Shown piece by piece: positions 10,463-41,060 of a stretch of DNA of 64,000 bases. The DNA comes from Liolophura sinensis. Taxonomy: Eukaryota; Mollusca; Polyplacophora; Chitonida; Chitonidae. The first letter of the stretch is position 1. Each line of letters starts with the position of its first letter. Location: the NCBI RefSeq assembly GCF_032854445.1, contig NC_088295.1:50579385-50643384 (forward strand), written 5' to 3'. The position numbers and the translations under genes are program-made. The notes below the pieces were generated by a model. The model had not been told where the DNA came from. It saw only the letters and a program-made list of their open reading frames with translations, and ran no database searches.

Positions 10463-17423
<6,961 letters not shown>

Positions 17424-19544: not shown

Positions 19545-19610
19545 TTACATTAAAATAAATCATCTTTCAATCATATTTAGAAATTTGTTATAAGATCAAA
19601 GGTACTCTTT
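19545..19610 (+). other. Left edge of array: unit with BTB gene deleted
   Basis: Bases 19555-19608 match unit spacer 20594-20650 (TCATCTTTCAATCATATTT to CAAAGGTACTC). From about 19612 the sequence matches the 3' flank of the BTB gene (22093 onward, TTTGATTAGTAAATACGTCC). The roughly 1.4 kb between these points in a normal unit, which contains the whole BTB gene, is missing. The array therefore begins with a deleted unit 0. Confidence 0.8.
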
Positions 19611-20008
19611 GACTCTTTGATTAGTAAATACGTCCCTGCTTGACGTTTGGCCATGAATTAAACATTTTTCCGCTTTACTTCTTGTTTGCAGATTTTCAGT
19701 GCTCATGCGTACAAGTTGCTTTTTTTCTACTTTGTTGTTGGTACATGTTTCAAATAAATGAGGATTAATTTTACACAACACAAATTTCTGGACTCAGATA
19801 AATGTCCTATCGTCTGTATTCGCAAGCAAAGCGCTAATATAGCTTCATTTTGTCGTCACTTACAGATACTTTAATTTGAAAACAAAATGCGGTACCTTGG
19901 CAACCTGAACCATTGTTTCTCTGAGAAACGCTCTTTCGCTCCTTTTTCTCCTCCAATGGTAACTGCATAGAAGCACGCTGGTTTCACTGGCAACTTTATT
20001 TAATATGA

Positions 20009-20377
20009 CTTTTATACAAAGGATACAAAATATTGTCAACAAAACTTCAAAACAAGGAACTGGCACTTCGTGTATGCAGTTCCTTAAAATTTCTCTCTTC
20101 CATACCCTGTGTTTATGTTGAAAATTCCAGTATCCCTGACGAAAGTACAATTAAAGCGAGAAAGAGGGATTCGTTGATTATACAACTAGATGAAAGACAA
20201 GCATTCGAAATTATAAATCACTCACAAAGACCATATTCGGAAAGCTGCGATTCTTTGAATAACAATGAGTTCAGGTTTGACCTCCTCGACGGATCGTCAG
20301 ATCTTTCAAATTTTCCTGATCACACGTTGATCGCAGACTATAAAGTCAGCACAATTGTTATGAATTCTAAATTCTGA
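20009..20377 (+). CDS. ORF B, unit 1: conserved open frame, function unknown
   Basis: Open for about 122 codons after an in-frame TGA at 20006, with no ATG except one six codons from the end. If coding it must be an exon or use a start outside the frame. It is serine-rich and polar with a basic patch (KARKRD) and an acidic C-terminal half (NNNEFRFDLLDGSSDL); no signal peptide, membrane span or domain that I recognise. A gap-free relative at 7461-7541 keeps the same frame with several silent third-base differences. A 14-bp perfect palindrome, GGCTTTATAAAGCC, follows 6 bp after the stop, then AATAAA (20399-20404) in units 1 and 2 only. This copy has His-Thr and Lys near the end where others have Gln and Thr. 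An acceptor-like site ending TTACAG at 19864 lies upstream but does not feed this frame directly. Confidence 0.4.
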   Translation, partial: LLYKGYKILSTKLQNKELALRVCSSLKFLSSIPCVYVENSSIPDESTIKARKRDSLIIQLDERQAFEIINHSQRPYSESCDSLNNNEFRFDLLDGSSDLSNFPDHTLIADYKVSTIVMNSKF

Positions 20378-20404
20378 CTGTGAGGCTTTATAAAGCCAAA
20401 TAAA

Positions 20405-21021
20405 CAAAATTCCTTCACATAAGAACCCTAAAGCTTTTGGAGGGTAGTTTTATAATATAGCAGAAACCCAATGTGACTTTTGGACAGGGCACACTGTCCT
20501 TCGATAAAGTGAGAGCTGAGATGGTCTTTGTCAACTATACCTGGAGAAAGATGCTTGACATCTACTGTCTCCAGACATCAATCACAATGAATTAAAACAA
20601 ATCATCTTTCAATCATATTTAGAAATTTGTTATAAGATCAAAGGTACTCATCACTTGACAATAATCCATTCACACCCTGGACAGCCCAGCACACCCAGGG
20701 GATAAAAACAGAGACATATTCGCTTTATCTACCTGCTGTTTGGCGAAGCACTTTTAATATTGGCTACACATCTTCACAGATGTGGTACAGATGATTCACT
20801 AAGAATGACACGCCCCATGTAGCCTTAATAAAGTAGCCGTCTCTTTTCACCCACCTATGAAATACTGACTGGACATTCTGGAGTCCACGTTAAAGGTGTC
20901 GATACCTCAGACAATAAGCAGATATGTTGAAATTATTCTGCAAATGTCGCCAAGCCCTAAGCTAGCCGTCATCCATGTAATTGTCTTGAGCCAGTGACGG
21001 TGGTGTCAGCAAACCCTTGGC
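20405..21021 (+). other. Unit spacer upstream of BTB gene (unit 1 as example)
   Basis: Repeated nearly unchanged in every unit. It holds a 7-bp hairpin with a TCAC loop at 20767-20784 (CACATCT / AGATGTG) and the inverted pair CCCTGG / CCAGGG around 20677-20700. No open frame is credible. It ends in the proposed promoter. Confidence 0.5.
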
Positions 21022-21027
21022 TATATA
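21022..21027 (+). promoter_or_regulatory. TATA box of BTB gene (unit 1; the same in all units)
   Basis: TATATA lies only 7 bp before the first ATG (21034) and 85 bp before the second in-frame ATG (21112). A start site 25-30 bp downstream of the box would fall inside the first codons. This favours M27 (MDCQQ) as the real initiator, with a 5' UTR of about 60 bp. The box is conserved in all nine units, including the relic. Confidence 0.5.
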
Positions 21028-21033
21028 TTCACA

Positions 21034-22080
21034 ATGTTTCGTCCATACCCATCAGTTAAAACATTATTGCTTCCCTTTGACACATCGCTTGTGGACCGCA
21101 TCTTCCTTACTATGGATTGTCAACAAGTCGAATTTTCTTTCGATCACGGAGATGGACTTTGTACTTTTTTAACAACGTCAGACAAAAGACTGTCAACGGA
21201 TGTGGAACTGCTAAACGTTGAGGGACTGAGCGCTGATCTTTCTCAACTTCTTTGCCAACCCGATTTGTGTGATATTCGCTTTCTCATTGGACCACACAAG
21301 GTACCCGTGTATGCTGTCAGTTCCATCTTGGCCGTTCGAATCAGTTTCTTTAGGAAACTCTTTAACACCAAGTCCACATGCACAACACTGCCCGTAAATG
21401 CCGAAGACGTTGTAAGAAAGAAGAACCCACTTTCGGCAATCGCCAAGGTCTTCAAGCGAAAATCGAGGACGCTTAACGTGAAAATTGAAGAGAAAGTGAG
21501 AGAAGAAAGCTGGCAAGTGGAACTTCCTGACGTCGAGGAAGGTGTTTTCCGCAGTGTTCTAGATTATATCTACAGTGGAAATGTGCTAGTAAATGTTTAC
21601 AACGTGGTTGGGGTCATAAAGGCGGCCCACAAGTACGCTTTACCAGAGTTATGCGCCGCGTGTTTCATCTACGCTAAAAGGAACATCACCCACACGTCAG
21701 CTCTGCCTCTGCTCTCAGCAACATGTACATATGGTCAGCTATCATTAAACGAAAGACTCCAAGGCATCATCTTAAAATACATAGCTGAAAATGCAGAAAC
21801 AATCTTGACTCAGACAGCATTTGACCACCTCTCCAGACAAGAGGTTGATCTGATTTTCCGCCAGTACAATATTCAGGCTTCGGAAGAAACCAAGTTGGAA
21901 GCCATTCTCAGGTGGAGTCACAAGTTCAGCGGCGATGCGGGATACATGTACCTTCAAAAAACACTTAAACTTTTTATCCGTCGTGTTAACATGCTGAAAA
22001 TATCCAAAAGTACACTGGAAAATGTTATAAAACCTTTGTGTCTTTTTCCTGACGAAGTTATACATAAAACAGCGGTATAG
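21034..22080 (+). CDS. BTB-BACK protein, unit 1
   Basis: Intronless, 348 codons from the first ATG or 322 from M27. Residues 67-112 and about 159-217 form a BTB/POZ fold (CDIRFLIGPHKVPVY, ILAVR-SFFRKLF, then LDYIYSGNVLVN). The fold is interrupted by a basic insert of about 45 residues (KKNPLSAIAKVFKRKSR). Residues about 218-345 form a BACK domain (ALPLLSATCTYGQLSLNERL, ILRWSHKF). There are no Kelch repeats. BTB-BACK proteins usually dimerise and act as substrate adaptors for Cullin-3 ubiquitin ligases. The split BTB and the ending KPLCLFPDEVI resemble the serine-enriched (gprs) protein group of invertebrates, but without its serine-rich tail. Unit-specific residues are I103 (Ser in all others), C116, V121, G170, I195, K200 and the end IHKTAV. 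AATAAA lies at 22236-22241. Confidence 0.9.
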   Translation: MFRPYPSVKTLLLPFDTSLVDRIFLTMDCQQVEFSFDHGDGLCTFLTTSDKRLSTDVELLNVEGLSADLSQLLCQPDLCDIRFLIGPHKVPVYAVSSILAVRISFFRKLFNTKSTCTTLPVNAEDVVRKKNPLSAIAKVFKRKSRTLNVKIEEKVREESWQVELPDVEEGVFRSVLDYIYSGNVLVNVYNVVGVIKAAHKYALPELCAACFIYAKRNITHTSALPLLSATCTYGQLSLNERLQGIILKYIAENAETILTQTAFDHLSRQEVDLIFRQYNIQASEETKLEAILRWSHKFSGDAGYMYLQKTLKLFIRRVNMLKISKSTLENVIKPLCLFPDEVIHKTAV

Positions 22081-22235
22081 TAGTGGAAAATGTTGATTCT
22101 TTAATTAGTAAATACGTCCCTGATTGACTTTTGGAAATGAATTAATAATTTTTTCCGCTTTACTTCATGTTTTTAGATATTTAGTGCTCATGTGTATAAG
22201 ATTTTTTTTGTATTTTGATGTTGGTACATGTTTCA

Positions 22236-22241
22236 AATAAA
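22236..22241 (+). promoter_or_regulatory. Polyadenylation signal of BTB gene (unit 1)
   Basis: AATAAA in the context TTTCAAATAAATGAG, about 155 bp after the stop codon. The same word stands at the same distance after every copy, which fits a complete intronless transcription unit within each repeat. Confidence 0.55.
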
Positions 22242-22491
22242 TGAGCACTAATTTTACACAACACAAATTTCTGGACTCAGATAAATGTCCTATCGTCTGT
22301 ATTCGCAAGCAAAGCACTAATATAGCTTCTTTTTGTCGTGACTTACAGATACTTTAATTTGAAAACAAAATGCGGTACCTTGGCAACCTCAACCATTGTT
22401 TGTCTGAGAAATGCTCTTTCGCTCCTTTTTCTCCTCCAATGGTAACTGCATAGAAGCACGCTGGTTTCACTGGCAACTTTATTTAGTATGA

Positions 22492-22860
22492 CTTTTATAC
22501 AAAGGATACAAAATATTGTCAACAAAACTTCAAAACAAGGAACTGGCACTTCGTGTATGCAGTTCCTTAAAATTTCTCTCTTCCATACCCTGTGTTTATG
22601 TTGAAAATTCCAGTATCCCTGACGAAAGTACAATTAAAGCGAGAAAGAGGGATTCGTTGATTATACAACTAGATGAAAGACAAGCATTCGAAATTATAAA
22701 TCACTCACAAAGACCATATTCGGAAAGCTGCGATTCTTTGAATGACAATGAGTTCAGGTTTGACCTCCTCGACGGATCGTCAGATCTTTCAAATTTTCCT
22801 GATCAGACGTTGATCGCAGACTATACAGTCAGCACAATTGTTATGAATTCTAAATTCTGA
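22492..22860 (+). CDS. ORF B, unit 2
   Basis: Open over the full length. It differs from unit 1 at three residues: NDNEF for NNNEF, DQTL for DHTL and ADYTV for ADYKV. AATAAA follows the palindrome as in unit 1. Function unknown. Confidence 0.4.
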   Translation, partial: LLYKGYKILSTKLQNKELALRVCSSLKFLSSIPCVYVENSSIPDESTIKARKRDSLIIQLDERQAFEIINHSQRPYSESCDSLNDNEFRFDLLDGSSDLSNFPDQTLIADYTVSTIVMNSKF

Positions 22861-23516
22861 CTGTGAGGCTTTATAAAGCCAAATAAACAAAATTCCTTCA
22901 CGTAAGAACCCTAAAACTTTTGAAGGGTAGTTTTATAATATAGCAGAAATCCAATGTGACTTTTGGACAGGGCACACTGTCCTTCGATAAAGTGAGAGCT
23001 GAGATGGTCTTTGTCAACTATACCTGGAGAAAGATGCTTGACATCTACTGTCTCCAGACATCAATCACAATGAATTAAAACAAATCATCTTTCAATCATA
23101 TTTAGAAATTTGTTATCAGATCAAAGGTACTCATCACTTGACAATAATCCATTCACACCCTGGACAGCCCAGCACACCCAGGGGGTAAAAACAGAGACAT
23201 ATTCGCTTTATCTACCTGCTGTTTGGCGAAGCACTTTTAATATTGGCTACACATCTTCACAGATGTGGTACAGATGATTCACTAAGAATGACACGCCCCA
23301 TGTAGCCTTAATAAAGTAGCCGTCTCTTTTCACCCACCTATGAAATACTGACTGGACATTCTGGAGTCCACGTTAAAGGTGTCGATACCTCAGACAATAA
23401 GCAGATATGTTGAAATTATTCTGCAAATGTCGCCAAGCCCTAAGCTAGCCGTCATCCATGTAATTGTCTGGAGCCAGTGACGGTGGTGTCAGCAAACCCT
23501 TGGCTATATATTCACA

Positions 23517-24563
23517 ATGTTTTGTCCATACCCATCAGTTAAAACATTATTGCTTCCCTTTGACACATCGCTTGTGGACCGCATCTTCCTTACTATGGAT
23601 TGTCAACAAGTCGAATTTTCTTTCGATCACGGAGATGGACTTTGTACTTTCTTAACAACGTCAGACAAAAGACTGTCAACGGATGTGGAACTGCTAAACG
23701 TTGAGGGACTGAGCGCTGATCTTTCTCAACTTCTTTGCCAACCCGATTTGTGTGATATTCGCTTTCTCATTGGACCACACAAGGTACCCGTGTATGCTGC
23801 CAGTTCCATCTTGGCCGCTCGAAGCAGTTTCTTTAGGAAACTCTTTAACACCAAGTCCACATGCACAACACTGCCCGCAAATGCCGAAGACGTTGTAAGA
23901 AAGAAGAACCCACTTTCGGCAATCGCCAAGGTCTTCAAGCGAAAATCGAGAACGCTTAACGTGAAAATTGAAGAGAAAGTGAGAGAAGAAAGCTGGCAAG
24001 TGGAACTTCCTGACATCGAGGAAGGTGTTTTCCGCAGTGTTCTAGATTATATCTACAGTGGAAATGTGCTAGTAAATGTTTACAACGTGGTTGGGGTCAT
24101 GAAGGCGGCCCACAAGTACGCTTTACCAGAGTTATGCGCCGCGTGTTTCATCTACGCTAAAAGGAACATCACCCACACGTCAGCTCTGCCTCTGCTCTCA
24201 GCAACATGTACATATGGTCAGCTATCATTAAACGAAAGACTCCAAGGCATCATCTTAAAATACATAGCTGAAAATGCAGAAACAATCTTGACTCAGATAG
24301 CATTTGACCACCTCTCCAGACAAGAGGTTGATCTGATTTTCCGCCAGTACAATATTCAGGCTTCGGAAGAAACCAAGTTGGAAGCCATTCTCAGGTGGAG
24401 TCACAAGTTCAGCGGCGATGCGGGATACATGTACCTTCAAAAAACACTTAAACTTTTTATCCGTCGTGTTAACATGCTGAAAATATCCAAAAGTACACTG
24501 GAAAATGTTATAAAACCTTTGTGTCTTTTTCCTGACGAAGTTATACCTAAAAAATCTGTATAG
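23517..24563 (+). CDS. BTB-BACK protein, unit 2
   Basis: Full 348-codon frame with the same BTB, basic insert and BACK layout as unit 1. Distinguishing residues are C3 (MFCPY), A95 and A101 in the BTB helix (AASSILAARSSFF), I167 (PDIEE), Ile for Thr in TQIAFDH, and the C-terminus PKKSV. It keeps G170 and K200 as in unit 1, so units 1 and 2 are the closest pair at the left of the array. Confidence 0.9.
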   Translation: MFCPYPSVKTLLLPFDTSLVDRIFLTMDCQQVEFSFDHGDGLCTFLTTSDKRLSTDVELLNVEGLSADLSQLLCQPDLCDIRFLIGPHKVPVYAASSILAARSSFFRKLFNTKSTCTTLPANAEDVVRKKNPLSAIAKVFKRKSRTLNVKIEEKVREESWQVELPDIEEGVFRSVLDYIYSGNVLVNVYNVVGVMKAAHKYALPELCAACFIYAKRNITHTSALPLLSATCTYGQLSLNERLQGIILKYIAENAETILTQIAFDHLSRQEVDLIFRQYNIQASEETKLEAILRWSHKFSGDAGYMYLQKTLKLFIRRVNMLKISKSTLENVIKPLCLFPDEVIPKKSV

Positions 24564-24977
24564 TAGTCGAAAATGTTGATTCTTTAATTTGTAAATAGGT
24601 CCCTGATTGACTTTTGGAAATGAATTAATAATTTTTTTCCGCTTTACTTCATGTTTTTAGATATTTAGTGCTCATGCGTATAAGATTTTTTTTGTATTTT
24701 GATGTTGGTACATGTTTCAAATAAATGAGCACTAATTTTACACAACACAAATTTCTGGACTCAGATAAATGTCCTATCGTCTGTATTCGCATCGGCAAAG
24801 CACTAATATAGCTTCTTTTTGTCGTCACCTACAGATACTTTAATTTGAAAACAAAATGCGGTACCTTGGCAACCTGAACCATTGTTTCTCTGAGAAGTGC
24901 TCTTTCGCTCCTTTTTCTCCTCCAATGGTAACTGCATAGAAGCACGCTGGTTTCACTGGCAACTTTATTTAATATGA

Positions 24978-25268
24978 CTTTTATACAAAGGATACAAAAT
25001 ATTGTCAACAAAACTTCAAAACAAGGAACTGGCACTTCGTGTATGCAGTTCCTTAAAATTTCTCTCTTCCATACCCTGTGTTTATGTTGAAAATTCCAGT
25101 ATCCCTGACGAAAGTACAATTAAAGCGAGAAAGAGGGATTCGTTGATTATACAACTAGATGAAAGACAAGCATTCGAAATTATAAATCACTCACAAAGAC
25201 CATATTCGGAAAGCTGCGATTCTTTGAATAACAATGAGTTCAGGTTTGACCTCCTCGACGGATCGTAA
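24978..25268 (+). pseudogene. ORF B, unit 3, truncated by a nonsense codon
   Basis: A TCA-to-TAA change at 25266-25268 ends the frame right after LLDGS, removing the last 26 codons found in unit 1. The codon that ends the frame in other units (TGA) is TCA here. From this unit rightwards the AATAAA after the palindrome is AAAAAA, so the signal is lost. Confidence 0.45.
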
Positions 25269-26001
25269 GATCTTTCAAATTTTCCTGATCAGACGTTGAT
25301 CACAGACTATACAGTCAGCACAATTGTTATGAATTCTAAATTCTCACTGTGAGGCTTTATAAAGCCAAAAAACAAAATTCCTTCACGTAAGAACCCTAAA
25401 GCTTTTGGAGGGTAGTTTTATAATATAGCAGAAATCCAATGTGACTTTTGGACAGGGCACACTGTCCTTCGATAAAGTGAAAGCTGAGATGGTCTTTGTC
25501 AACTATACCTGGAGAAAGATGCTTGACATCTACTGTCTCCAGACATCAATCACAATGAATTAAAACAAATCATCTTTCAATCATATTTAGAAATTTGTTA
25601 TAAGATCAAAGGTACTCATCACTTGACAATAATCCATTCACACCCTGGACAGCCCAGCACACCCAGGGGGTAAAAACAGAGACATATTCGCTTTATCTAC
25701 CTGCTGTTTGGCGAAGCACTTTTAATATTGGCTACACATCTTCACAGATGTGGTATAGATGATTCACTAAGAATGACACGCCCCATGTAGCCTTAATAAA
25801 GTAGCCGTCTCTTTTCACCCACCTATGAAATACTGACTGGACATTCTGGAGTCCACGTTAAAGGTGTCGATACCTCAGACAATAAGCAGATATGTTGAAA
25901 TTATTCTGCAAATGTCGCCAAGCCCTAAGCTAGCCGTCATCCATGTAATTGTCTGGAGCCAGTGACGGTGGTGTCAGCAAACCCTTGGCTATATATTCAC
26001 A

Positions 26002-27048
26002 ATGTTTCGTCCATACCCATCAGTTAAAACATTATTGCTTCCCTTTGACACATCGGTTGTGGACCGCATCTTCCTTACTATGGATTGTCAACAAGTCGAA
26101 TTTTCTTTCGATCACGGAGATGGACTTTGTACTTTCTTAACAACGTCAGACAAAAGACTGTCAACGGATGTGGAACTGCTAAACGTTGAGGGACTGAGCG
26201 CTGATCTTTCTCAACTTCTTTGCCAACCCGATTTGTGTGATATTCGCTTTCTCATTGGACCACACAAGGTACCCGTGTATGCTGTCAGTTCCATCTTGGC
26301 CGCTCGAAGCAGTTTCTTTAGGAAACTCTTTAACACCAAGTCCACATGCACAACACTGCCCGCAAATGCCGAAGACGTTGTAAGAAAGAAGAACCCACTT
26401 TCGGCAATCGCCAAGGTCTTCAAGCGAAAATCGAGAACGCTTAACGTGAAAATTGAAGAGAAAGTGAGAGAAGAAAGCTGGCAAGTGGAACTTCCTGACG
26501 TCGAGGAAGGTGTTTTCCGCAGTGTTCTAGATTATATCTACAGTGGAAATGTGCTAGTAAATGTTTACAACGTGGTTGGGGTCATGAAGGCGGCCCACGA
26601 GTACGCTTTACCAGAGTTATGCGCCGCGTGTTTCATCTACGCTAAAAGGAACATCACCCACACGTCAGCTCTGCCTCTGCTCTCAGCAACATGTACATAT
26701 GGTCAGCTATCATTAAACGAAAGACTCCAAGGCATCATCTTAAAATACATAGCTGAAAATGCAGAAACAATCTTGACTCAGACAGCATTTGACTACCTCT
26801 CCAGACAAGAGGTTGATCTGATTTTCCGCCAGTACAATATTCAGGCTTCGGAAGAAACCAAGTTGGAAGCCATTCTCAGGTGGAGTCACAAGTTCAGCGG
26901 CGATGCGGGATACATGTACCTTCGAAAAACACTTAAACTTTTTATCCGTCGTGTTAACATGCTGAAAATATCCAAAAGTACATTGCAAAATGTTATAAAA
27001 CCTTTGTGTCTTTTTCCTGACGAAGTTATACCTAAAAAAGCTGTATAG
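26002..27048 (+). CDS. BTB-BACK protein, unit 3
   Basis: Full 348-codon frame. First copy with V19 (DTSVVD), M195 with E200 (KAAHEYAL) and Arg in YLRKTL, features shared with units 4-7. Private changes are Tyr in FDYLSRQ and Gln in STLQNV. It keeps A101 like unit 2 and G170 like units 1 and 2, so it is intermediate between the left and central units. Confidence 0.9.
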   Translation: MFRPYPSVKTLLLPFDTSVVDRIFLTMDCQQVEFSFDHGDGLCTFLTTSDKRLSTDVELLNVEGLSADLSQLLCQPDLCDIRFLIGPHKVPVYAVSSILAARSSFFRKLFNTKSTCTTLPANAEDVVRKKNPLSAIAKVFKRKSRTLNVKIEEKVREESWQVELPDVEEGVFRSVLDYIYSGNVLVNVYNVVGVMKAAHEYALPELCAACFIYAKRNITHTSALPLLSATCTYGQLSLNERLQGIILKYIAENAETILTQTAFDYLSRQEVDLIFRQYNIQASEETKLEAILRWSHKFSGDAGYMYLRKTLKLFIRRVNMLKISKSTLQNVIKPLCLFPDEVIPKKAV

Positions 27049-27459
27049 TAGTGGAAAATGTTGATTCTTTAATAAGTAAATAGGTCCCTGCTTAACGTTT
27101 GGCCATGAATTAAACATTTTTCCGCTTTACTTCTTGTTTTCAGATTTTCAGTGCTCATGTGTATAAGATTTTTTTGTATTTTGATGTTGGTACATGTTTC
27201 AAATAAATGAGGATTAATTTTACACAACACAAATTTCTGGACTCAGATAAATGTCCTATCGTCTGTATTCGGATCGGCAAAGCGCTAATATAGCTTCTTT
27301 TTGTCGTGACTTACAGATACTTTAATTTGAAAACAAAATGCGGTACCTTGGCAACCTGAACCATTGTTTGTCTGAGAAATGCTCTTTCGCTCCTTTTTCT
27401 CCTCCAATGGTAACTGCATGGAAGCACGCTGGTTTCACTGACAATTTTATTTAGTATGA

Positions 27460-27828
27460 CTTTTATACAAAGGATACAAAATATTGTCAACAAAACTTCA
27501 AAACAAGGAACTGGCACTTCGTGTATGCACTTCCTTAAAATTTCTCTCTTCCATACCCTGTGTTTATGTTGGAAATTCCAGTATCCCTGACGAAAGTACA
27601 ATTAAAGCGAGAAAGAGGGATTCGTTGATTATACAACTAGATGAAAGACAAGCATTCGAAATTATAAATCACTCACAAAGACCATATTCGGAAAGCTGCG
27701 ATTCTTTGAATAACAATGAGTTCAGGTTTGACCTCCTCGACGGATCGTCAGATCTTTCAAATTTTCCTGATCAGACGTTGATCGCAGACTATACAGTCAG
27801 CACAATTGTTATGAATTCTAAATTCTGA
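27460..27828 (+). CDS. ORF B, unit 4
   Basis: Open over the full length. Distinguishing residues are Thr for Ser in RVCTSLKF and Gly for Glu in YVGNSS. The Gly variant is kept in units 5-8. Function unknown. Confidence 0.4.
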   Translation, partial: LLYKGYKILSTKLQNKELALRVCTSLKFLSSIPCVYVGNSSIPDESTIKARKRDSLIIQLDERQAFEIINHSQRPYSESCDSLNNNEFRFDLLDGSSDLSNFPDQTLIADYTVSTIVMNSKF

Positions 27829-28483
27829 CTGTGAGGCTTTATAAAGCCAAAAAACAAAATTCCTTCACATAAGAACCCTAAAGCTTTTGGAGGGTAGTTT
27901 TATAATATAGCAGAAATCCAATGTGACTTTTGGACAGCGCACACTGTCTTTTGATAAAGTGAGAGCTGAGATGGTCTTTGTCAACTATACCTGGAGAAAG
28001 ATGCTTGACATCTACTGTCTCCAGACATCAATCACAATGAATTAAAACAAATCATCTTTCAACCATATTTAGAAATTTGTTATAAGATCAAATGTACTCA
28101 TCACTTGACAATAATCCATTCACACCCTGGACAGCCCAGCACACCCAGGGGGTAAAAACAGAGACATATTCGCTTTATCTACCTGCTGTTTGGCGAAGCA
28201 CTTTTAATATTGGCTACACATCTTCACAGATGTGGTATAGATGATTCACTAAGAATGACACGCCCCATGTAGCCTTAATAAAGTAGCCGTCTCTTTACAC
28301 CCACCTATGAAATACTGACTGGACATTCTGGAGTCCACGTTAAAGGTGTCGAAACCTCAGACAATAAGCAGATATGTTGAAATTATTCTGCAAATGTCGC
28401 CAAGCCCTAAGCTAGCCGTCATCCATGTAATTGTCTGGAGCCAGTGACGGTGGTGTCAGCAAACCCTTGGCTATATATTCACA

Positions 28484-29530
28484 ATGTTTCGTCCATACCC
28501 ATCAGTTAAAACATTATTGCTTCCCTTTGACACATCGGTTGTGGACCGCATCTTCCTTACTATGGATTGTCAACAAGTCGAATTTTCTTTCGATCACGGA
28601 GATGGACTTTGTACTTTCTTAACAACGTCAGACAAAAGACTGTCAACGGATGTGGAACTGCTAAACGTTGAGGGACTGAGCGCTGATCTTTCTCAACTTC
28701 TTTGCCAACCCGATTTGTGTGATATTCGCTTTCTCATTGGACCACACAAGGTACCCGTGTATGCTGTCAGTTCCATCTTGGCCGTTCGAAGCAGTTTCTT
28801 TAGGAAACTCTTTAACACCAAGTCCACACGCACAACACTGCCCGCAAATGCCGAAGACGTTGTAAGAAAGAAGAACCCACTTTCAGCAATCGCCAAGGTC
28901 TTCAAGCGAAAATCGAGGACGCTTAACGTGAAAATTGAAGAGAAAGTGAGAGAAGAAAGCTGGCAAGTGGAACTTCCTGACGTCGAGGAAGATGTTTTCC
29001 GCAGTGTTCTAGATTATATCTACAGTGGAAATGTGCTAGTAAATGTTTACAACGTGGTTGGGGTCATGAAGGCGGCCCACGAGTACGCTTTACCAGAGTT
29101 ATGCGCCGCGTGTTTCATCTACGCTAAAAGGAACATCACCCACTTGTCAGCTCTGCCTCTGCTCTCAGCAACATGTACATATGGTCAGCTATCATTAAAC
29201 GAAAGACTCCAAGGCATCATCTTAAAATACATAGCTGAAAATGCAGAAACAATATTGACTCAGACAGCATTTGACCACCTCTCCAGACAAGAGGTTGATC
29301 TGATTTTCCGCCAGTACAATATTCAGGCTTCGGAAGAAACCAAGTTGGAAGCCATTCTCAGGTGGAGTCACAAGTTCAGCGGCGATGCGGGATACATGTA
29401 CCTTCGAAAAACACTTAAACTTTTTATCCGTCGTGTTAACATGCTGAAAATATCCAAAAGTACATTGGAAAATGTTATAAAACCTTTGTGTCTTTATCCT
29501 GACGAAGTTATACCTAAAAAAGCTGTATAG
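28484..29530 (+). CDS. BTB-BACK protein, unit 4
   Basis: Full frame. It defines the central-array type: V19, V101 with S103, R116, A121, D170 (EEDVF), M195, E200, YLRKTL and the end LYPDEVIPKKAV. L221 (THLSALP) is shared only with unit 6, which lies exactly two units (4,960 bp) downstream. Confidence 0.9.
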   Translation: MFRPYPSVKTLLLPFDTSVVDRIFLTMDCQQVEFSFDHGDGLCTFLTTSDKRLSTDVELLNVEGLSADLSQLLCQPDLCDIRFLIGPHKVPVYAVSSILAVRSSFFRKLFNTKSTRTTLPANAEDVVRKKNPLSAIAKVFKRKSRTLNVKIEEKVREESWQVELPDVEEDVFRSVLDYIYSGNVLVNVYNVVGVMKAAHEYALPELCAACFIYAKRNITHLSALPLLSATCTYGQLSLNERLQGIILKYIAENAETILTQTAFDHLSRQEVDLIFRQYNIQASEETKLEAILRWSHKFSGDAGYMYLRKTLKLFIRRVNMLKISKSTLENVIKPLCLYPDEVIPKKAV

Positions 29531-30963: not shown

Positions 30964-32010
30964 ATGTTTCGTCCATACCCATCAGTTAAAACATTATTGC
31001 TTCCCTTTGACACATCGGTTGTGGACCGCATCTTCCTTACTATGGATTGTCAACAAGTCGAATTTTCTTTCGATCACGGAGATGGACTTTGTACTTTCTT
31101 AACAACGTCAGACAAAAGACTGTCAACGGATGTGGAACTGCTAAACGTTGAGGGACTGAGCGCTGATCTTTCTCAACTTCTTTGCCAACCCGATTTGTGT
31201 GATATTCGCTTTCTCATTGGACCACACAAGGTACCCGTGTATGCTGTCAGTTCCATCTTGGCCGTTCGAAGCAGTTTCTTTAGGAAACTCTTTAACACCA
31301 AGTCCACACGCACAACACTGCCCGCAAATGCCGAAGACGTTGTAAGAAAGAAGAACCCACTTTCAGCAATCGCCAAGGTCTTCAAGCGAAAATCGAGGAC
31401 GCTTAACGTGAAAATTGAAGAGAAAGTGAGAGAAGAAAGCTGGCAAGTGGAACTTCCTGACGTCGAGGAAGATGTTTTCCGCAGTGTTCTAGATTATATC
31501 TACAGTGGAAATGTGCTAGTAAATGTTTACAACGTGGTTGGGGTCATGAAGGCGGCCCACGAGTACGCTTTACCAGAGTTATGCGCCGCGTGTTTCATCT
31601 ACGCTAAAAGGAACATCACCCACACGTCAGCTCTGCCTCTGCTCTCAGCAACATGTACATATGGTCAGCTATCATTAAGCGAAAGACTCCAAGGCATCAT
31701 CTTAAAATACATAGCTGAAAATGCAGAAACAATATTGACTCAGACAGCATTTGACCACCTCTCCAGACAAGAGGTTGATCTGATTTTCCGCCAGTACAAT
31801 ATTCAGGCTTCGGAAGAAACCAAGTTGGAAGCCATTCTCAGGTGGAGTCACAAGTTCAGCGGCGATGCGGGATACATGTACCTTCGAAAAACACTTAAAC
31901 TTTTTATCCGTCGTGTTAACATGCTGAAAATATCCAAAAGTACATTGGAAAATGTTATAAAACCTTTGTGTCTTTATCCTGACGAAGTTATACCTAAAAA
32001 AGCTGTATAG
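30964..32010 (+). CDS. BTB-BACK protein, unit 5
   Basis: Full frame of the central type. It has T221 (THTSALP) as in unit 7, and one private change, Ser for Asn at 239 (LSLSERL). The spacer before it carries CCATTTACACCC, shared with the spacer before unit 7 but not with those before units 4 or 6 (CCATTCACACCC). Confidence 0.9.
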   Translation: MFRPYPSVKTLLLPFDTSVVDRIFLTMDCQQVEFSFDHGDGLCTFLTTSDKRLSTDVELLNVEGLSADLSQLLCQPDLCDIRFLIGPHKVPVYAVSSILAVRSSFFRKLFNTKSTRTTLPANAEDVVRKKNPLSAIAKVFKRKSRTLNVKIEEKVREESWQVELPDVEEDVFRSVLDYIYSGNVLVNVYNVVGVMKAAHEYALPELCAACFIYAKRNITHTSALPLLSATCTYGQLSLSERLQGIILKYIAENAETILTQTAFDHLSRQEVDLIFRQYNIQASEETKLEAILRWSHKFSGDAGYMYLRKTLKLFIRRVNMLKISKSTLENVIKPLCLYPDEVIPKKAV

Positions 32011-32419
32011 TAGTGGAAAATGTTGATTCTTTGATTAGTAAATAGGTCCCTGCTTAACGTTTGGCCATGAATTAAACATTTTTCCGCTTTACTTCTTGTT
32101 TTCAGATTTTCAGTGCTCATGTGTATAAGAGTTTTTTGTATTTTGATGTTGGTACATGTTTCAAATAAATGAGGATTAATTTTACACAACACAAATTTCT
32201 GGACTCAGATAAATGTCCTATCGTCTGTATTCGCAAGCAAAGCGCTAATATAGCTTCTTTTTGTCGTCACCTACAGATACTTTAATTTGAAAACAAAATG
32301 CGGTACCTTGGCAACCTGAACCATTGTTTCTCTGAGAAATGCTCTTTCGCTCCTTTTTCTCCTCCGATGGTAACTGCATAGAAGCATGCTGGTTTCACTG
32401 GCAACTTTATTTAATATGA

Positions 32420-32794
32420 CTTTTATACAAAGGATACAAAATATTGTCAACAAAATTTCAAAACAAGGAACTGGCACTTCGTGTATGCAGTTCCTTAAAA
32501 TTTCTCTCTTCCATACCCTGTGTTTATGTTGGAAATTCCAGAATCCCTGACGAAAGTACAATTAAAGCGAGAAAGAGGGATTCGTTGATTATACAACTAG
32601 ATGAAAGACAAGCATTCGAAATTATAAATCACTCACAAAGACCATATTCGGAAAGCTGCGATTCTTTGAATAACAATGAGTTCAGGTTTGACCTCCTCGA
32701 CGGATCGTCAGATCTTTCAAATTTTCCTGATCAGACGTTGATCGCAGACTATACAGTCAGCACAATTGTTATGAATTCTAATTTCTCACTGTGA
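32420..32794 (+). CDS. ORF B, unit 6, with extended C-terminus
   Basis: Open frame reading STKFQNKE where most units have STKLQNKE. It ends MNSNFSL because the usual TGA is read as TCA, adding two codons before the next stop. Unit 8 has the same two features. Confidence 0.4.
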   Translation, partial: LLYKGYKILSTKFQNKELALRVCSSLKFLSSIPCVYVGNSRIPDESTIKARKRDSLIIQLDERQAFEIINHSQRPYSESCDSLNNNEFRFDLLDGSSDLSNFPDQTLIADYTVSTIVMNSNFSL

Positions 32795-33443
32795 GGCTTT
32801 ATAAAGCCAAAAAACAAAATTCCTTCACATAAGAACCCTAAAGCTTTTGGAGGGTAGTTTTATAATATAGCAGAAATCCAATGTGACTTTTGGACAGCGC
32901 ACACTGTCCTTCGATAAAGTGAGAGCTGAGATGGTCTTTGTCAACTATACCTGGAGAAAGATGCTTGACATCTACTGTCTCCAGACATCAATCACAATGA
33001 ATTAAAACAAATCATCTTTCAACCATATTTAGAAATTTGTTATAAGATCAAATGTACTCATCACTTGACAATAATCCATTCACACCCTGGACAGCCCAGC
33101 ACACCCAGGGGGTAAAAACAGAGACATATTCGCTTTATCTACCTGCTGTTTGGCGAAGCACTTTTAATATTGGCTACACATCTTCACAGATGTGGTATAG
33201 ATGATTCACTAAGAATGACACGCCCCATGTAGCCTTAATAAAGTAGCCGTCTCTTTTCACCCACCTATGAAATACTGACTGGACATTCTGGAGTCCACGT
33301 TAAAGGTGTCGAAACCTCAGACAATAAGCAGATATGTTGAAATTATTCTGCAAATGTCGCCAAGCCCTAAGCTAGCCGTCATCCATGTAATTGTCTGGAG
33401 CCAGTGACGGTGGTGTCAGCAAACCCTTGGCTATATATTCACA

Positions 33444-34490
33444 ATGTTTCGTCCATACCCATCAGTTAAAACATTATTGTTTCCCTTTGACACAGCGGTT
33501 GTGGACCGCATCTTCCTTACTATGGATTGTCAACAAGTCGAATTTTCTTTCGATCACGGAGATGGACTTTGTACTTTCTTAACAACGTCAGACAAAAGAC
33601 TGTCAACGGATGTGGAACTGCTAAACGTTGAGGGACTGAGCGCTGATCTTTCTCAACTTCTTTGCCAACCCGATTTGTGTGATATTCGCTTTCTCATTGG
33701 ACCACACAAGGTACCCGTGTATGCTGTCAGTTCCATCTTGGCCGTTCGAAGCAGTTTCTTTAGGAAACTCTTTAACACCAAGTCCACACGCACAACACTG
33801 CCCGCAAATGCCGAAGACGTTGTAAGAAAGAAGAACCCACTTTCAGCAATCGCCAAGGTCTTCAAGCGAAAATCGAGGACGCTTAACGTGAAAATTGAAG
33901 AGAAAGTGTAAGAAGAAAGCTGGCAAGTGGAACTTCCTGACGTCGAGGAAGATGTTTTCCGCAGTGTTCTAGATTATATCTACAGTGGAAATGTGCTAGT
34001 AAATGTTTACAACGTGGTTGGGGTCATGAAGGCGGCCCACGAGTACGCTTTACCAGAGTTATGCGCCGCGTGTTTCATCTACGCTAAAAGGAACATCACC
34101 CACTTGTCAGCTCTGCCTCTGCTCTCAGCAACATGTACATATGGTCAGCTATCATTAAACGAAAGACTCCAAGGCATCATCTTAAAATACATAGCTGAAA
34201 ATGCAGAAACAATATTGACTCAGACAGCATTTGACCACCTCTCCAGACAAGAGGTTGATCTGATTTTCCGCCAGTACAATATTCAGGCTTCGGAAGAAAC
34301 CAAGTTGGAAGCCATTCTCAGGTGGAGTCACAAGTTCAGCGGCGATGCGGGATACATGTACCTTCGAAAAACACTTAAACTTTTTATCCGTCGTGTTAAC
34401 ATGCTGAAAATATCCAAAAGTACATTGGAAAATGTTATAAAACCTTTGTGTCTTTATCCTGACGAAGTTATACCTAAAAAAGCTGTATAG
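33444..34490 (+). pseudogene. BTB-BACK gene, unit 6, nonsense codon at 156
   Basis: Identical in layout to unit 4, but codon 156 (AGA, Arg) has become TAA at 33909-33911, two adjacent base changes. Translation would stop inside the basic insert after 155 residues, leaving half of the BTB fold and no BACK domain. The rest of the frame (to 34490) is otherwise intact and has no nearby ATG for re-initiation. Private or nearly private residues are F13 (shared with unit 7) and A18. L221 is shared with unit 4. The lack of further damage says the stop is recent. Confidence 0.85.
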
Positions 34491-34899
34491 TAGTGGAAAA
34501 TGTTGATTCTTTGATTAGTAAATAGGTCCCTGCTTAACGTTTGGCCATGAATTAAACATTTTTCCGCTTTACTTCTTGTTTTCAGATTTTCAGTGCTCAT
34601 GTGTATAAGATTTTTTTGTATTTTGATGTTGGTACATGTTTCAAATAAATGAGGATTAATTTTACACAACACAAATTTCTGGACTCAGATAAATGTCCTA
34701 TCGTCTGTATTCGCAAGCAAAGCGCTAATATAGCTTCTTTTTGTCGTCACCTACAGATACTTTAATTTGAAAACAAAATGCGGTACCTTGGCAACCTGAA
34801 CCATTGTTTCTCTGAGAAATGCTCTTTCGCTCCTTTTTCTCCTCCGATGGTAACTGCATAGAAGCATGCTGGTTTCACTGGCAACTTTATTTAATATGA

Positions 34900-35268
34900 C
34901 TTTTATACAAAGGATACAAAATATTGTCAACAAAACTTCAAAACAAGGAACTGGCACTTCGTGTATGCAGTTCCTTAAAATTTCTCTCTTCCATACCCTG
35001 TGTTTATGTTGGAAATTCCAGAATCCCTGACGAAAGTACAATTAAAGCGAGAAAGAGGGATTCGTTTATTATACAACTAGATGAAAGACAAGCATTCGAA
35101 ATTATAAATCACTCACAAAGACCATATTCGGAAAGCTGCGATTCTTTGAATAACAATGAGTTCAGGTTTGACCTCCTCGACGGATCGTCAGATCTTTCAA
35201 ATTTTCCTGATCAGACGTTGATCGCAGACTATACAGTCAGCACAATTGTTATGAATTCTAAATTCTGA
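34900..35268 (+). CDS. ORF B, unit 7
   Basis: Open over the full length and identical in sequence to the unit 5 version (GNSRIP, RDSFIIQ, ending MNSKF). Confidence 0.4.
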   Translation, partial: LLYKGYKILSTKLQNKELALRVCSSLKFLSSIPCVYVGNSRIPDESTIKARKRDSFIIQLDERQAFEIINHSQRPYSESCDSLNNNEFRFDLLDGSSDLSNFPDQTLIADYTVSTIVMNSKF

Positions 35269-35923
35269 CTGTGAGGCTTTATAAAGCCAAAAAACAAAAT
35301 TCCTTCACATAAGAACCCTAAAGCTTTTGGAGGGTAGTTTTATAATATAGCAGAAATCCAATGTGACTTTTGGACAGCGCACACTGTCCTTCGATAAAGT
35401 GAGAGCTGAGATGGTCTTTGTCAACTATACCTGGAGAAAGATGCTTGACATCTACTGTCTCCAGACATCAATCACAATGAATTAAAACAAATCATCTTTC
35501 AACCATATTTAGAAATTTGTTATAAGATCAAATGTACTCATCACTTGACAATAATCCATTTACACCCTGGACAGCCCAGCACACCCAGGGGGTAAAAACA
35601 GAGACATATTCGCTTTATCTACCTGCTGTTTGGCGAAGCACTTTTAATATTGGCTACACATCTTCACAGATGTGGTATAGATGATTCACTAAGAATGACA
35701 CGCCCCATGTAGCCTTAATAAAGTAGCCGTCTCTTTTCACCCACCTATGAAATACTGACTGGACATTCTGGAGTCCACGTTAAAGGTGTCGAAACCTCAG
35801 ACAATAAGCAGATATGTTGAAATTATTCTGCAAATGTCGCCAAGCCCTAAGCTAGCCGTCATCCATGTAATTGTCTGGAGCCAGTGACGGTGGTGTCAGC
35901 AAACCCTTGGCTATATATTCACA

Positions 35924-36970
35924 ATGTTTCGTCCATACCCATCAGTTAAAACATTATTGTTTCCCTTTGACACATCGGTTGTGGACCGCATCTTCCTTAC
36001 TATGGATTGTCAACAAGTCGAATTTTCTTTCGATCACGGAGATGGACTTTGTACTTTCTTAACAACGTCAGACAAAAGACTGTCAACGGATGTGGAACTG
36101 CTAAACGTTGAGGGACTGAGCGCTGATCTTTCTCAACTTCTTTGCCAACCCGATTTGTGTGATATTCGCTTTCTCATTGGACCACACAAGGTACCCGTGT
36201 ATGCTGTCAGTTCCATCTTGGCCGTTCGAAGCAGTTTCTTTAGGAAACTCTTTAACACCAAGTCCACACGCACAACACTGCCCGCAAATGCCGAAGACGT
36301 TGTAAGAAAGAAGAACCCACTTTCAGCAATCGCCAAGGTCTTCAAGCGAAAATCGAGGACGCTTAACGTGAAAATTGAAGAGAAAGTGAGAGAAGAAAGC
36401 TGGCAAGTGGAACTTCCTGACGTCGAGGAAGATGTTTTCCGCAGTGTTCTAGATTATATCTACAGTGGAAATGTGCTAGTGAATGTTTACAACGTGGTTG
36501 GGGTCATGAAGGCGGCCCACGAGTACGCTTTACCAGAGTTATGCGCCGCGTGTTTCATCTACGCTAAAAGGAACATCACCCACACGTCAGCTCTGCCTCT
36601 GCTCTCAGCAACATTTACATATGGTCAGCTATCATTAAACGAAAGACTCCAAGGCATCATCTTAAAATACATAGCTGAAAATGCAGAAACAATCTTGACT
36701 CAGACAGCATTTGACCACCTCTCCAGACAAGAGGTTGATCTGATTTTCCGCCAGTACAATATTCAGGCTTCGGAAGAAACCAAGTTGGAAGCCATTCTCA
36801 GGTGGAGTCACAAGTTCAGCGGCGATGCGGGATACATGTACCTTCGAAAAACACTTAAACTTTTTATCCGTCGTGTTAACATGCTGAAAATATCCAAAAG
36901 TACATTGGAAAATGTTATAAAACCTTTGTGTCTTTATCCTGACGAAGTTATACCTAAAAAAGCTGTATAG
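35924..36970 (+). CDS. BTB-BACK protein, unit 7
   Basis: Full frame of the central type with T221 as in unit 5. F13 (TLLFPFD) is shared with unit 6. A private change puts Phe for Cys at 231 (SATFTYG) at the start of the BACK domain. Confidence 0.9.
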   Translation: MFRPYPSVKTLLFPFDTSVVDRIFLTMDCQQVEFSFDHGDGLCTFLTTSDKRLSTDVELLNVEGLSADLSQLLCQPDLCDIRFLIGPHKVPVYAVSSILAVRSSFFRKLFNTKSTRTTLPANAEDVVRKKNPLSAIAKVFKRKSRTLNVKIEEKVREESWQVELPDVEEDVFRSVLDYIYSGNVLVNVYNVVGVMKAAHEYALPELCAACFIYAKRNITHTSALPLLSATFTYGQLSLNERLQGIILKYIAENAETILTQTAFDHLSRQEVDLIFRQYNIQASEETKLEAILRWSHKFSGDAGYMYLRKTLKLFIRRVNMLKISKSTLENVIKPLCLYPDEVIPKKAV

Positions 36971-37379
36971 TAGTGGAAAATGTTGATTCTTTGATTAGTA
37001 AATAGGTCCCTGCTTAACGTTTGGCCATGAATTAAACATTTTTCCGCTTTACTTCTTGTTTTCAGATTTTCAGTGCTCATGTGTATAAGAGTTTTTTGTA
37101 TTTTGATGTTGGTACATGTTTCAAATAAATGAGGATTAATTTTACACAACACAAATTTCTGGACTCAGATAAATGTCCTATCGTCTGTATTCGCAAGCAA
37201 AGCGCTAATATAGCTTCTTTTTGTCGTCACCTACAGATACTTTAATTTGAAAACAAAATGCGGTACCTTGGCAACCTGAACCATTGTTTCTCTGAGAAAT
37301 GCTCTTTCGCTCCTTTTTCTCCTCCGATGGTAACTGCATAGAAGCATGCTGGTTTCACTGGCAACTTTATTTAATATGA

Positions 37380-37754
37380 CTTTTATACAAAGGATACAAA
37401 ATATTGTCAACAAAATTTCAAAACAAGGAACTGGCACTTCGTGTATGCAGTTCCTTAAAATTTCTCTCTTCCATACCCTGTGTTTATGTTGGAAATTCCA
37501 GAATCCCTGACGAAAGTACAATTAAAGCGAGAAAGAGGGATTCGTTTATTATACAACTAGATGAAAGACAAGCATTCGAAATTATAAATCACTCACAAAG
37601 ACCATATTCGGAAAGCTGCGATTCTTTGAATAACAGTGAGTTCAGGTTTGACCTCCTCGACGGATCGTCAGATCTTTCAAATTTTCCTGATCAGACGTTG
37701 ATCGCAGACTATACAGTCAGCACAATTGTTATGAATTCTAATTTCTCACTGTGA
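37380..37754 (+). CDS. ORF B, unit 8, with extended C-terminus
   Basis: Open frame with STKFQNKE and the MNSNFSL ending shared with unit 6. A private Asn-to-Ser change gives LNNSEF. Function unknown. Confidence 0.4.
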   Translation, partial: LLYKGYKILSTKFQNKELALRVCSSLKFLSSIPCVYVGNSRIPDESTIKARKRDSFIIQLDERQAFEIINHSQRPYSESCDSLNNSEFRFDLLDGSSDLSNFPDQTLIADYTVSTIVMNSNFSL

Positions 37755-38402
37755 GGCTTTATAAAGCCAAAAAACAAAATTCCTTCACATAAGAACCCTA
37801 AAGCTTTTGGAGGGTAGTTTTATAATATAGCAGAAATCCAATGTGACTTTTGGACAGGGCACACTGTCCTTCGATAAAGTGAGAGCTGAGATGGTCTTGT
37901 CAACTATACCTGGAGAAAGATGCTTGACATCTACTGTCTCCAGACATCAATCACAATGAATTAAAACAAATCATCTTTCAATCATATTTAGAAATTTGTT
38001 ATAAGATCAAAGGTACTCATCACTTGACAATAATCCATTCACACCCTGGACAGCCCAGCACACCCAGGGGGTAAAAACAGAGACATATTCGCTTTATCTA
38101 CCTGCTGTTTGGCGAAGCACTTTTAATATTGGCTACACATCTTCACAGATGTGGTATAGATGATTCACTAAGAATGACACGCCCCATGTAGCCTTAATAA
38201 AGTAGCCGTCTCTTTTCACCCACCTATGAAATACTGACTGGACATTCTGGAGTCCACGTTAAAGGTGTCGATACCTCAGACAATAAGCAGATATGTTGAA
38301 ATTATTCTGCAAATGTCGCCAAGCCCTAAGCTAGCCGTCATCCATGTAATTGTCTGGAGCCAGTGACGGTGGTGTCAGCAAACCCTTGGCTATATATTCA
38401 CA

Positions 38403-39449
38403 ATGTTTCGTCCATACCCATCAGTTAAAACATTATTGCTTCCCTTTGACACATCGCTTGTGGACCGCATCTTCCTTACTATGGATTGTCAACAAGTCGA
38501 ATTTTCTTTCGATCACGGAGATGGACTTTGTACTTTCTTAACAACGTCAGACAAAAGACTGTCAACGGATGTGGAACTGCTAAACGTTGAGGGACTGAGC
38601 GCTGATCTTTCTCAACTTCTTTGCCAACCCGATTTGTGTGATATTCGCTTTCTCATTGGACCACACAAGGTACCCGTGTATGCTGTCAGTTCCATCTTGG
38701 CCGTTCGAAGCAGTTTCTTTAGGAAACTCTTTAACACCAAGTCCACACGCACAACACTGCCCGCAAATGCCGAAGACGTTGTAAGAAAGAAGAACCCACT
38801 TTCAGCAATCGCCAAGGTCTTCAAGCGAAAATCGAGGACGCTTAACGTGAAAATTGAAGAGAAAGTGAGAGAAGAAAGCTGGCAAGTGAAACTTCCTGAC
38901 GTCGAGGAAGATGTTTTCCGCAGTGTTCTAGATTATATCTACAGTGGAAATGTGCTAGTGAATGTTTACAACGTGGTTGGGGCCATGAAGGCGGCCCACG
39001 AGTACGCTTTACCAGAATTATGCGCCGCGTGTTTTCTCTACGCTAAAAGGAACATCACCCACACGTCAGCTCTGCCTCTGCTCTCAGCAACATGTACATA
39101 TGGTCAGCTGTCATTAAACGAAAGACTCCAAGGCATCATCTTAAAATACATAGCTGAAAATGCAGAAACAATATTGACTCAGACAGCATTTGACCGCCTC
39201 TCCAGACAAGAGGTTGATCTGATTTTCCGCCAGTACAATATTCAGGCTTCGGAAGAAACCAAGTTGGAAGCCATTCTCAGGTGGAGTCACAAGTTCAGCG
39301 GCGATGCGGGATACATGTACCTTCGAAAAACACTTAAACTTTTTATCCGTCGTGTTAACATGCTGAAAATATCCAAAAGTACATTTGAAAATGTTATAAA
39401 ACCTTTGTGTCTTTTTCCTGACGAAGTTATACATAAAACAGCTGTATAG
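38403..39449 (+). CDS. BTB-BACK protein, unit 8
   Basis: Full frame and the most divergent intact copy on the right. Private changes are K163 (QVKLPD), A194 (VVGAMKA), L212 (CFLYAKR), Arg in FDRLSRQ and Phe in STFENV. It shares L19 and the C-terminus FPDEVIHKTAV with unit 1 but keeps R116, A121, D170 and E200 of the central type. It is thus a mosaic of the outer and central types. Confidence 0.9.
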   Translation: MFRPYPSVKTLLLPFDTSLVDRIFLTMDCQQVEFSFDHGDGLCTFLTTSDKRLSTDVELLNVEGLSADLSQLLCQPDLCDIRFLIGPHKVPVYAVSSILAVRSSFFRKLFNTKSTRTTLPANAEDVVRKKNPLSAIAKVFKRKSRTLNVKIEEKVREESWQVKLPDVEEDVFRSVLDYIYSGNVLVNVYNVVGAMKAAHEYALPELCAACFLYAKRNITHTSALPLLSATCTYGQLSLNERLQGIILKYIAENAETILTQTAFDRLSRQEVDLIFRQYNIQASEETKLEAILRWSHKFSGDAGYMYLRKTLKLFIRRVNMLKISKSTFENVIKPLCLFPDEVIHKTAV

Positions 39450-39859
39450 TAGTGGGAAATGTTGATTCTTTAATTAGTAAATAGGTCCCTGCTTGACTTT
39501 TGGAAATGAATTAAAATTTTTTTCCGCTTTACTTCATGTTTTTAGATATTTAGTGCTCATGCGTATAAGATTTTTTTGTATTTTGATGTTGGTACATGTT
39601 TCAAATAAATGAGGATTAATTTTACACAACACAAATTTCTGGACTCAGGTAAATGTCCTATCGTCTGTATTCGCAAGCAAAGCGCTAATATAGCTTCTTT
39701 TTGTCGTCACCTACAGATACTTTAATTTGAAAACAAAATGCGGTACCTTGGCAACCTGAACCATTGTTTCTCTGAGAAATGCTCTTTCGCTCCTTTTTCT
39801 CCTCCGATGGTAACTGCATGGAAGCACGCTGGTTTCACTGGCAATTTTATTTAATATGA

Positions 39860-40150
39860 CTTTTATACAAAGGATACAAAATATTGTCAACAAAACTTCA
39901 AAACAAGGAACTGGCACTTCGTGTATGCAGTTCCTTAAAATTTCTCTCTTCCATACCCTGTGTTTATGTTTAAAATTCCAGTATCCCTGACGAAAGTACA
40001 ATTAAAGCGAGAAAGAGGGATTCGTTGATTACACAACTAGATGAAAGACAAGCATTCGAAATTATAAATCACTCACAAAGACCATATTCGGAAAGCTGCG
40101 ATTCTTTGAATAACAATGATATCAGGTTTGACCTCCTCGACGGATCGTAA
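39860..40150 (+). pseudogene. ORF B, unit 9, two nonsense codons
   Basis: A GAA-to-TAA change at 39971-39973 (codon 30 counted from the TTG at 39884) and the same TCA-to-TAA change as unit 3 at 40148-40150. It is clearly non-functional and leads into the decayed ninth BTB copy. Confidence 0.5.
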
Positions 40151-40883
40151 GATCTTTCAAATTTTCCTGATCAGACGTTGATCACAGAATATACAGTAAG
40201 CACAATTGTTATGAGTTCTAAATTCTCACTGTGAGGCTTTATAAAGCCAAAAAACAAAATTTCTTCACATAAGAACCCTAAAGCTTTTGGAGGGTAGTTT
40301 TATAATATAGCAGAAATTCAATGTGACTTTTGGACAGCGCACACTGTCCTTCGATAAAGTGAGAGCTGAGATGGTCTTTGTCAACTATACCTGGAGAAAG
40401 ATGCTTGACATCTACTGTCTCCAGACATCAATCACAATGAATTAAAACAAATCATCTTTCAACCATATTTAGAAATTTGTTATAAGATCAAAGGTACTCA
40501 TCACTTGACAATAATCCATTCACACCCTGGACAGCCCAGCACACCCAGGGGGTAAAAACAGAGACATATTCGCTTTATCTACCTGCTGTTTGGCGAAGCA
40601 CTTTTAATATTGGCTACACATCTTCACAGATGTGGTATAGATGATTCACTAAGAATGACACGCCCCATGTAGCCTTAATAAAGTAGCCGTCTCTTTTCAC
40701 CCACCTATGAAATACTGACTGGACATTCTGGAGTCCACGTTAAAGGTGTCGAAACCTCAGACAATAAGCAGATATGTTGAAATTATTCTGCAAATGTCGC
40801 CAAGCCCTAAGCTAGCCGTCATCCATGTAATTGTCTGGAGCCAGTGACGGTGGTGTCAGCAAACCCTTGGCTATATATTCACA

Positions 40884-41060
40884 ATGTTTCGTCGACACCC
40901 ATCAGTTAAAACATTATTGCTTTCCTTTGACACATCTTCCTTACTATGGATTGTCAACAAGGCGAATTTTATTTTGATCAGAAGTGGAGTTAGTGACCGT
41001 TGAGGAACCGACCAGTGATCTTTATATGCTTCTTTCCCAATCCGATTGGAATATTTAGGT
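40884..41060 (+). pseudogene. BTB-BACK gene relic, unit 9 (right edge of array)
   Basis: Begins ATGTTTCGTCGACACCC like the other copies. A 16-bp deletion after GACACATC shifts the first-ATG frame. The second ATG (at 40946) still starts MDCQQGEF, but a larger deletion removes the next part. Recognisable words such as GTTGAGGAACCGAC and CAATCCGATT continue to about 41050 with many substitutions. Nothing of the BACK domain remains. It is much older than the damage in unit 6. Confidence 0.8.

Follow-up and report, generated by a model that had tools for sequence, protein, structure and literature searches.

A probably young head-to-tail array of BTB-BACK frames in the chiton Liolophura sinensis, with exchange between units and neutral-looking change

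Introduction

What does a row of eight near-identical copies of one BTB-BACK gene represent: a working array kept for the dose of its product, or a recent amplification in which the frame changes as if neutral? The question is raised by a stretch of 64,000 nucleotides from Liolophura sinensis (assembly GCF_032854445.1, contig NC_088295.1, positions 50,579,385 to 50,643,384 of the forward strand). The whole stretch was analysed and is called the window below, and all coordinates are positions in it. An initial annotation had described the copies as each paired with an uncharacterised open reading frame (ORF), ORF B. Our analysis makes it probable that the locus is a young tandem gene array, recently amplified, whose units exchange sequence and whose frame shows neutral-looking change.

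The array and its edges

When the window was aligned with itself, a shift of one unit gave 18.85 kb of aligned sequence at 98.6 % identity, far above chance, and shorter matches recurred at each further multiple of the unit. Self-alignment and unit alignment together delimit a head-to-tail array of near-identical units of about 2.48 kb (~2480 bp; Table 1). The initial description of eight 348-codon copies, seven of them intact, was borne out: the frames all lie on the forward strand at a near-constant spacing of 2479-2485 bp, and a premature stop is found in unit 6 only. The flanks, described as identical, are in fact near-identical. Across all 28 whole-unit pairs of units 1-8 the identity is 97.3-99.8 %, with a mean pairwise divergence of 1.7 %. 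The proteins of the other six intact frames are 96-99 % identical to the unit 4 copy. The most variable segment of the unit lies directly 3' of the gene, with 43 variable sites in 399 bp among the eight units.

Both edges of the array adjoin unlike flanking sequence and are decayed. At the left edge, a blastn search of the masked window with unit 2 recovered a 65-bp remnant that is 92 % identical to the unit. At the right edge, a ninth unit has kept its upstream part, and its gene carries deletions of 16 bp and 52 bp and is recognisable to about position 41047. The whole-unit identities of this ninth unit (85-86 %) include the decayed gene and the flank, and the figures for its upstream part and its gene were therefore taken separately. 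Over its upstream 655 bp, the ninth unit has 4, 3 and 4 differences from units 5, 6 and 7, respectively. Because these 655 bp are near-identical to the three units, the upstream part of the ninth unit would either have stayed in exchange with the array or have split off late.

Exchange between units and origin of the array

Among 55 informative two-state sites, 485 of 1485 site pairs failed the four-gamete test, which requires at least 14 exchanges. When the T-rich 3' stretch was left out, 128 of 435 pairs still failed (at least seven exchanges), and in the frame alone 36 of 136 failed (at least three exchanges). Units that lie closer together are also more similar (Mantel r 0.53, p 0.0045). 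The mosaic of variants and the decayed edges point to amplification followed by partial homogenisation through unequal crossing-over or gene conversion. "Very recent amplification or ongoing homogenisation", the alternatives named in the initial annotation, thus agree with the low divergence, the distance effect, the seven or more exchanges and the decayed edges.

The proposed course of events starts from a founder consisting of one intronless BTB-BACK gene and about 1.4 kb of flanking DNA. The founder gene was presumably functional before amplification, to judge from the open 348-codon frame with its BTB domain. Head-to-tail amplification would have followed, with unequal crossing-over of misaligned copies as its most likely cause, and later exchange among the copies would have left the interior nearly uniform while the edges decayed.

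Precedents are known both for clusters of intronless BTB genes and for tandem expansion through unequal crossing-over. The rodent TDPOZ cluster (MATH-BTB) likewise consists of intronless BTB-domain genes that were multiplied and are clustered on one chromosome (PMC2724483). Its members differ in carrying a MATH (TRAF) domain, are described as retrocopies and lie mostly in a 2.5-Mb cluster (PMC2724483), whereas the array has tight 2.48-kb units and its frame has no MATH match (see below). In Acropora corals, recurrent tandem duplication is attributed to unequal crossing-over or related repair, and neutral neighbours hitch-hike (PMC12314368). Those cases concern other gene families with reported sequence diversity (PMC12314368), in contrast to the near-uniform array described here.

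Selection on the BTB frame

Among the eight BTB frames, 32 single-base changes are non-synonymous and 10 synonymous, and one of the changes creates a stop; codons 156 and 221 have two changes each, which were tallied separately. The ratio of non-synonymous to synonymous rates (omega) was 1.08 (interval 0.51-2.46; kappa 2.05, with the transition rate taken from the non-coding part and 31 non-synonymous changes entered), and a calculation by hand with all 32 gave about 1.11. Under neutrality, 3.8 % of changes would be nonsense, or about 1.6 of 42, and one was seen. Within the wide interval, the frame shows no sign of either purifying or diversifying selection. Since the BTB frame varies as if neutral, neither a kept dose nor diversified Cullin-3 targets, the two functions that had been suggested for the expansion, is supported by a constraint or by an excess of amino acid changes.

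Several points weigh against a young array under neutral change. All eight frames are 1047 bp long and free of insertions and deletions, while seven gap events are found in the non-coding part of the same units, which hints at some constraint. We gave this contrast little weight because five of the seven gaps sit in one T-rich stretch (22146-22307). Seven of the eight frames are still open, as mild selection would also yield, and the omega interval extends down to about 0.5. The clustering of incompatible sites was only modest in a permutation test (p 0.02), so that recurrent mutation may account for part of the mosaic. The founder gene was not found, and the count of eight units holds for the sequence as assembled.

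Domain content and Cullin-3 binding

Pfam domains were scanned in two of the eight frames (units 1 and 3). The BTB part of the initial BTB-BACK label stood firmly, with PF00651 at 60.7 bits in unit 3 and 55.2 bits in unit 1 (cut-off 20.5; E-value 1.8 × 10−16), the match falling in two stretches in both frames. The BACK part is borderline: PF07707 follows BTB with 20.3 and 20.0 bits, just under its cut-off of 20.9, and structure alignments with gigaxonin and KLHL11 extend into the BACK part. In the same two frames no Pfam match up to an E-value of 0.1 was observed for kelch repeats, a MATH domain or a Rho GTPase domain, and the frame stops after 348 codons.

The closest solved structures are gigaxonin/KLHL-type BTB-BACK proteins and BTBD6, from the former of which the array frame differs in the lack of a kelch match. 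The best match was gigaxonin (residues 115-295, E-value 1.7 × 10−5), and BTBD6 was also among the best (E-value 3.1 × 10−5). In the gigaxonin alignment, the first half of that protein's BTB domain is matched by residues 115-157. The BTBD6 alignment falls into two pieces, residues 78-110 and 158-214, which are separated by 47 residues here and by 6 in BTBD6; its first piece is weak alone. We prefer the split alignment, which on our reading would place about 41 additional residues after the second BTB helix, ahead of the next strand. The product, if made, would thus be BTB-BACK adaptor-like with some 40 extra residues at this point. A structure model built from the seven near-identical intact frames was unusable (mean predicted local distance difference test score, pLDDT, 39.7; predicted template modelling score, pTM, 0.27). 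Viral and prokaryote contigs yielded no confirmed relative, which fits an animal-type gene. The frame may resemble the insect "serine-enriched protein".

The mark of a Cullin-3 adaptor is a phi-x-E motif in the alpha3/beta4 loop (PMC3616122). V155-R-E157 looks by eye like a candidate for this motif, yet chance is a likely source of such a match in a Glu-rich loop, and the model is too poor to place it. Cullin-3 binding was reported for RhoBTB2 even though its first BTB domain carries a much larger A2-B3 insertion (PMC1257465), and the longer loop here therefore does not exclude binding. In RhoBTB the extra residues seem, on our reading, to sit at the same place as in the array protein, which differs in having no Rho GTPase match, a much shorter insertion and one BTB domain. 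Cullin-3 binding by the array protein is possible and can't be taken for granted.

Transcription signals

Signals were scanned in the eight post-gene stretches and, before the first gene, in the last 60 bp. One TATA box and one AATAAA per copy had been annotated. Instead, each post-gene stretch has one AATAAA at about +155 from the stop and another about 205 bp short of the following ATG; the first stretch alone has three. Three TATA-like words (TATAAAT, TATAAAG and TATATAT) also occur in every stretch. In all nine units the final base of TATATAT stands at -6 from the ATG, too near for a normal TATA box of that ATG. Its only use would presumably be for a transcript that has its start within the frame and is translated from a later ATG. 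Bacterial-type promoters and terminators were found at 7 and 2 sites (5.6 and 1.8 expected) and are irrelevant to an animal-type gene.

Other readings of the array

The strongest competitor is a working multigene array whose uniformity is kept up for the higher dose of a Cullin-3 adaptor that many copies supply, and we consider it unlikely. The seven open frames, the absence of frame indels and the exchange among units would suit it, and a longer loop is no bar to Cullin-3 in the light of RhoBTB2 (PMC1257465). However, frame change looks neutral, unit 6 is broken, the ninth gene has decayed, and the promoter and poly(A) signals are not as first described. In a fuller version, the locus would be a living, homogenised array of a BTB-BACK adaptor that has an unusually long loop in its region of Cullin-3 binding, and it would be maintained for dose as a histone-like array of ubiquitin-ligase adaptors; this seems slightly less likely again.

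It is more doubtful still that the number of units is in part a product of the assembly, as could happen if two haplotypes or overlapping reads had been placed end to end. Units 5 and 7, the closest pair, differ at only 5 sites, as such an error might produce. But all pairs among units 1-8 differ (5 to 66 sites), adjacent units are set apart by 13 to 54 sites, and each edge of the array gives way to unlike flanking sequence.

A young, recently amplified array thus remains our preferred reading. As such it offers a clean natural case of a gene on its way from amplification to decay, in which exchange is readable at the single-base level. The array alone leaves the picture of BTB proteins and Cullin-3 ligases unchanged; if the copies were expressed and their number varied between individuals, it would be a useful case of adaptor dosage.

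ORF B

The initial annotation gave no coordinates for ORF B, which is taken here as the longest frame in the non-coding part, running from stop to stop in unit 2 (Table 1). The claim that the repeated unit always includes it holds for the stretch of DNA, a counterpart of which is present in all nine units, but is not supported for a pair of genes. ORF B has no usable ATG, and the two ATG-begun frames of at least 30 codons in the non-coding part have 38 codons each. Its length hardly exceeds what chance would produce: frames of at least 122 codons were found in 102 of 2000 dinucleotide shuffles of the 1436-bp stretch and in 22 of 111 flank slices, which overlap and include duplicated and partly coding sequence. 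Internal stops interrupt ORF B in two of the nine units (units 3 and 9, the latter with two), and the terminal stop is lost in units 3, 6, 8 and 9. The 12 changes that ORF B shows among the eight units include one to a stop, and none is synonymous, a pattern with a probability of 0.03 to 0.06 without selection. No Pfam match was observed up to an E-value of 1.

That ORF B is nevertheless a real coding part, whether as a separate gene or as a 3' exon belonging to the BTB gene, is very improbable. Its length, its presence in nine units and the seven units free of internal stops speak for this, as does a relative of 76 bp at 7463-7537, 72 % like ORF B DNA (blastn E-value 2.6 × 10−4), which matches in the same frame (tblastn E-value 0.01). 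By eye, the mismatches of this relative are even over codon positions, which gives no argument for coding. The separate gene was rejected for its start, length, stops and substitution pattern. As to the BTB gene and ORF B being spliced together, a rough scan for donor and acceptor sites by consensus frequencies showed no strong donor close to the gene end. ORF B is most likely passenger non-coding DNA, present in every unit because the units are copies of each other.

The 7463-7537 segment lies between two blocks of the left-flank duplication described below, where the second copy has about 0.9 kb of other sequence.

Least credible of all is a mobile element, either as the unit itself or as the means of its spread. 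Interspersed repeats and duplications do occur around the array, but its copies stand exclusively head to tail. In the rest of the window the unit matched, at an E-value of 1 or better, nothing but the edge pieces and the 76-bp stretch at 7463, and no transposase or integrase was seen in Pfam among the frames scanned.

Table 1. Positions of the array, its frames and its edge pieces in the window
Feature	Position	Strand	Basis or remark
Near-identical head-to-tail array	19609..40936	+	self-alignment, unit alignment
BTB-BACK frame unit 1, intact	21034..22080	+	frame and self-alignment; Pfam BTB 55.2 bits
BTB-BACK frame unit 2, intact	23517..24563	+	frame and self-alignment
BTB-BACK frame unit 3, intact	26002..27048	+	frame and self-alignment; Pfam BTB 60.7 bits
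BTB-BACK frame unit 4, intact	28484..29530	+	frame and self-alignment
BTB-BACK frame unit 5, intact	30964..32010	+	frame and self-alignment
BTB-BACK frame unit 6, stop at codon 156	33444..34490	+	frame and self-alignment
BTB-BACK frame unit 7, intact	35924..36970	+	frame and self-alignment
BTB-BACK frame unit 8, intact	38403..39449	+	frame and self-alignment
Decayed start of ninth gene copy, with deletions	40884..41047	+	weak matches alone beyond
65-bp remnant of a further unit, left edge	19536..19600	+	blastn, unit 2 vs masked window
ORF B of unit 2, stop-to-stop, 122 codons	22492..22857	+	counterpart in all nine units
Most variable segment of the unit	22093..22491	+	unit alignment

Genomic surroundings

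The left flank is a direct duplication (1-7828 and 10745-18806) with pieces 89-97 % identical at an offset of 10.2-11.0 kb. Sequence related to the 63-bp repeats of this duplication recurs at 18864-19454, as if a third copy began at the start of the BTB array. Both duplicates contain a near-identical exon on the forward strand (6984-7253 and 17151-17420); the first copy was searched and resembles the C-terminus of lambda-crystallin (PDB 3ado, E-value 3 × 10−6), and the second gave a near-identical translation.

To the right of the array lies an exon of ribosomal protein L24e (45845-46177, reverse strand; PF01246, E-value 4.4 × 10−15), and beyond it a leucine-rich-repeat (LRR) gene begins at about 50776 on the forward strand. 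Its first exon gave weak LRR matches only, the best to the LRR protein PPP1R7 (E-value 0.012); the gene may be CEP97-like. The gene content of the window points to an animal genome, and an interspersed repeat would suggest a mollusc. Between the two genes, an imperfect palindrome of about 590 bp (49913-50502, 74 %) has the look of a foldback element. A SINE-like (short interspersed nuclear element) repeat of about 260 bp occurs at 8082-8346, 43520-43784 and 62399-62647, the copies being 84-90 % alike. Simple repeats include a minisatellite at 60776-61074 with 13.4 copies of a 22-bp unit and, at 13619-13715, a perfect AT repeat of 48.5 units.

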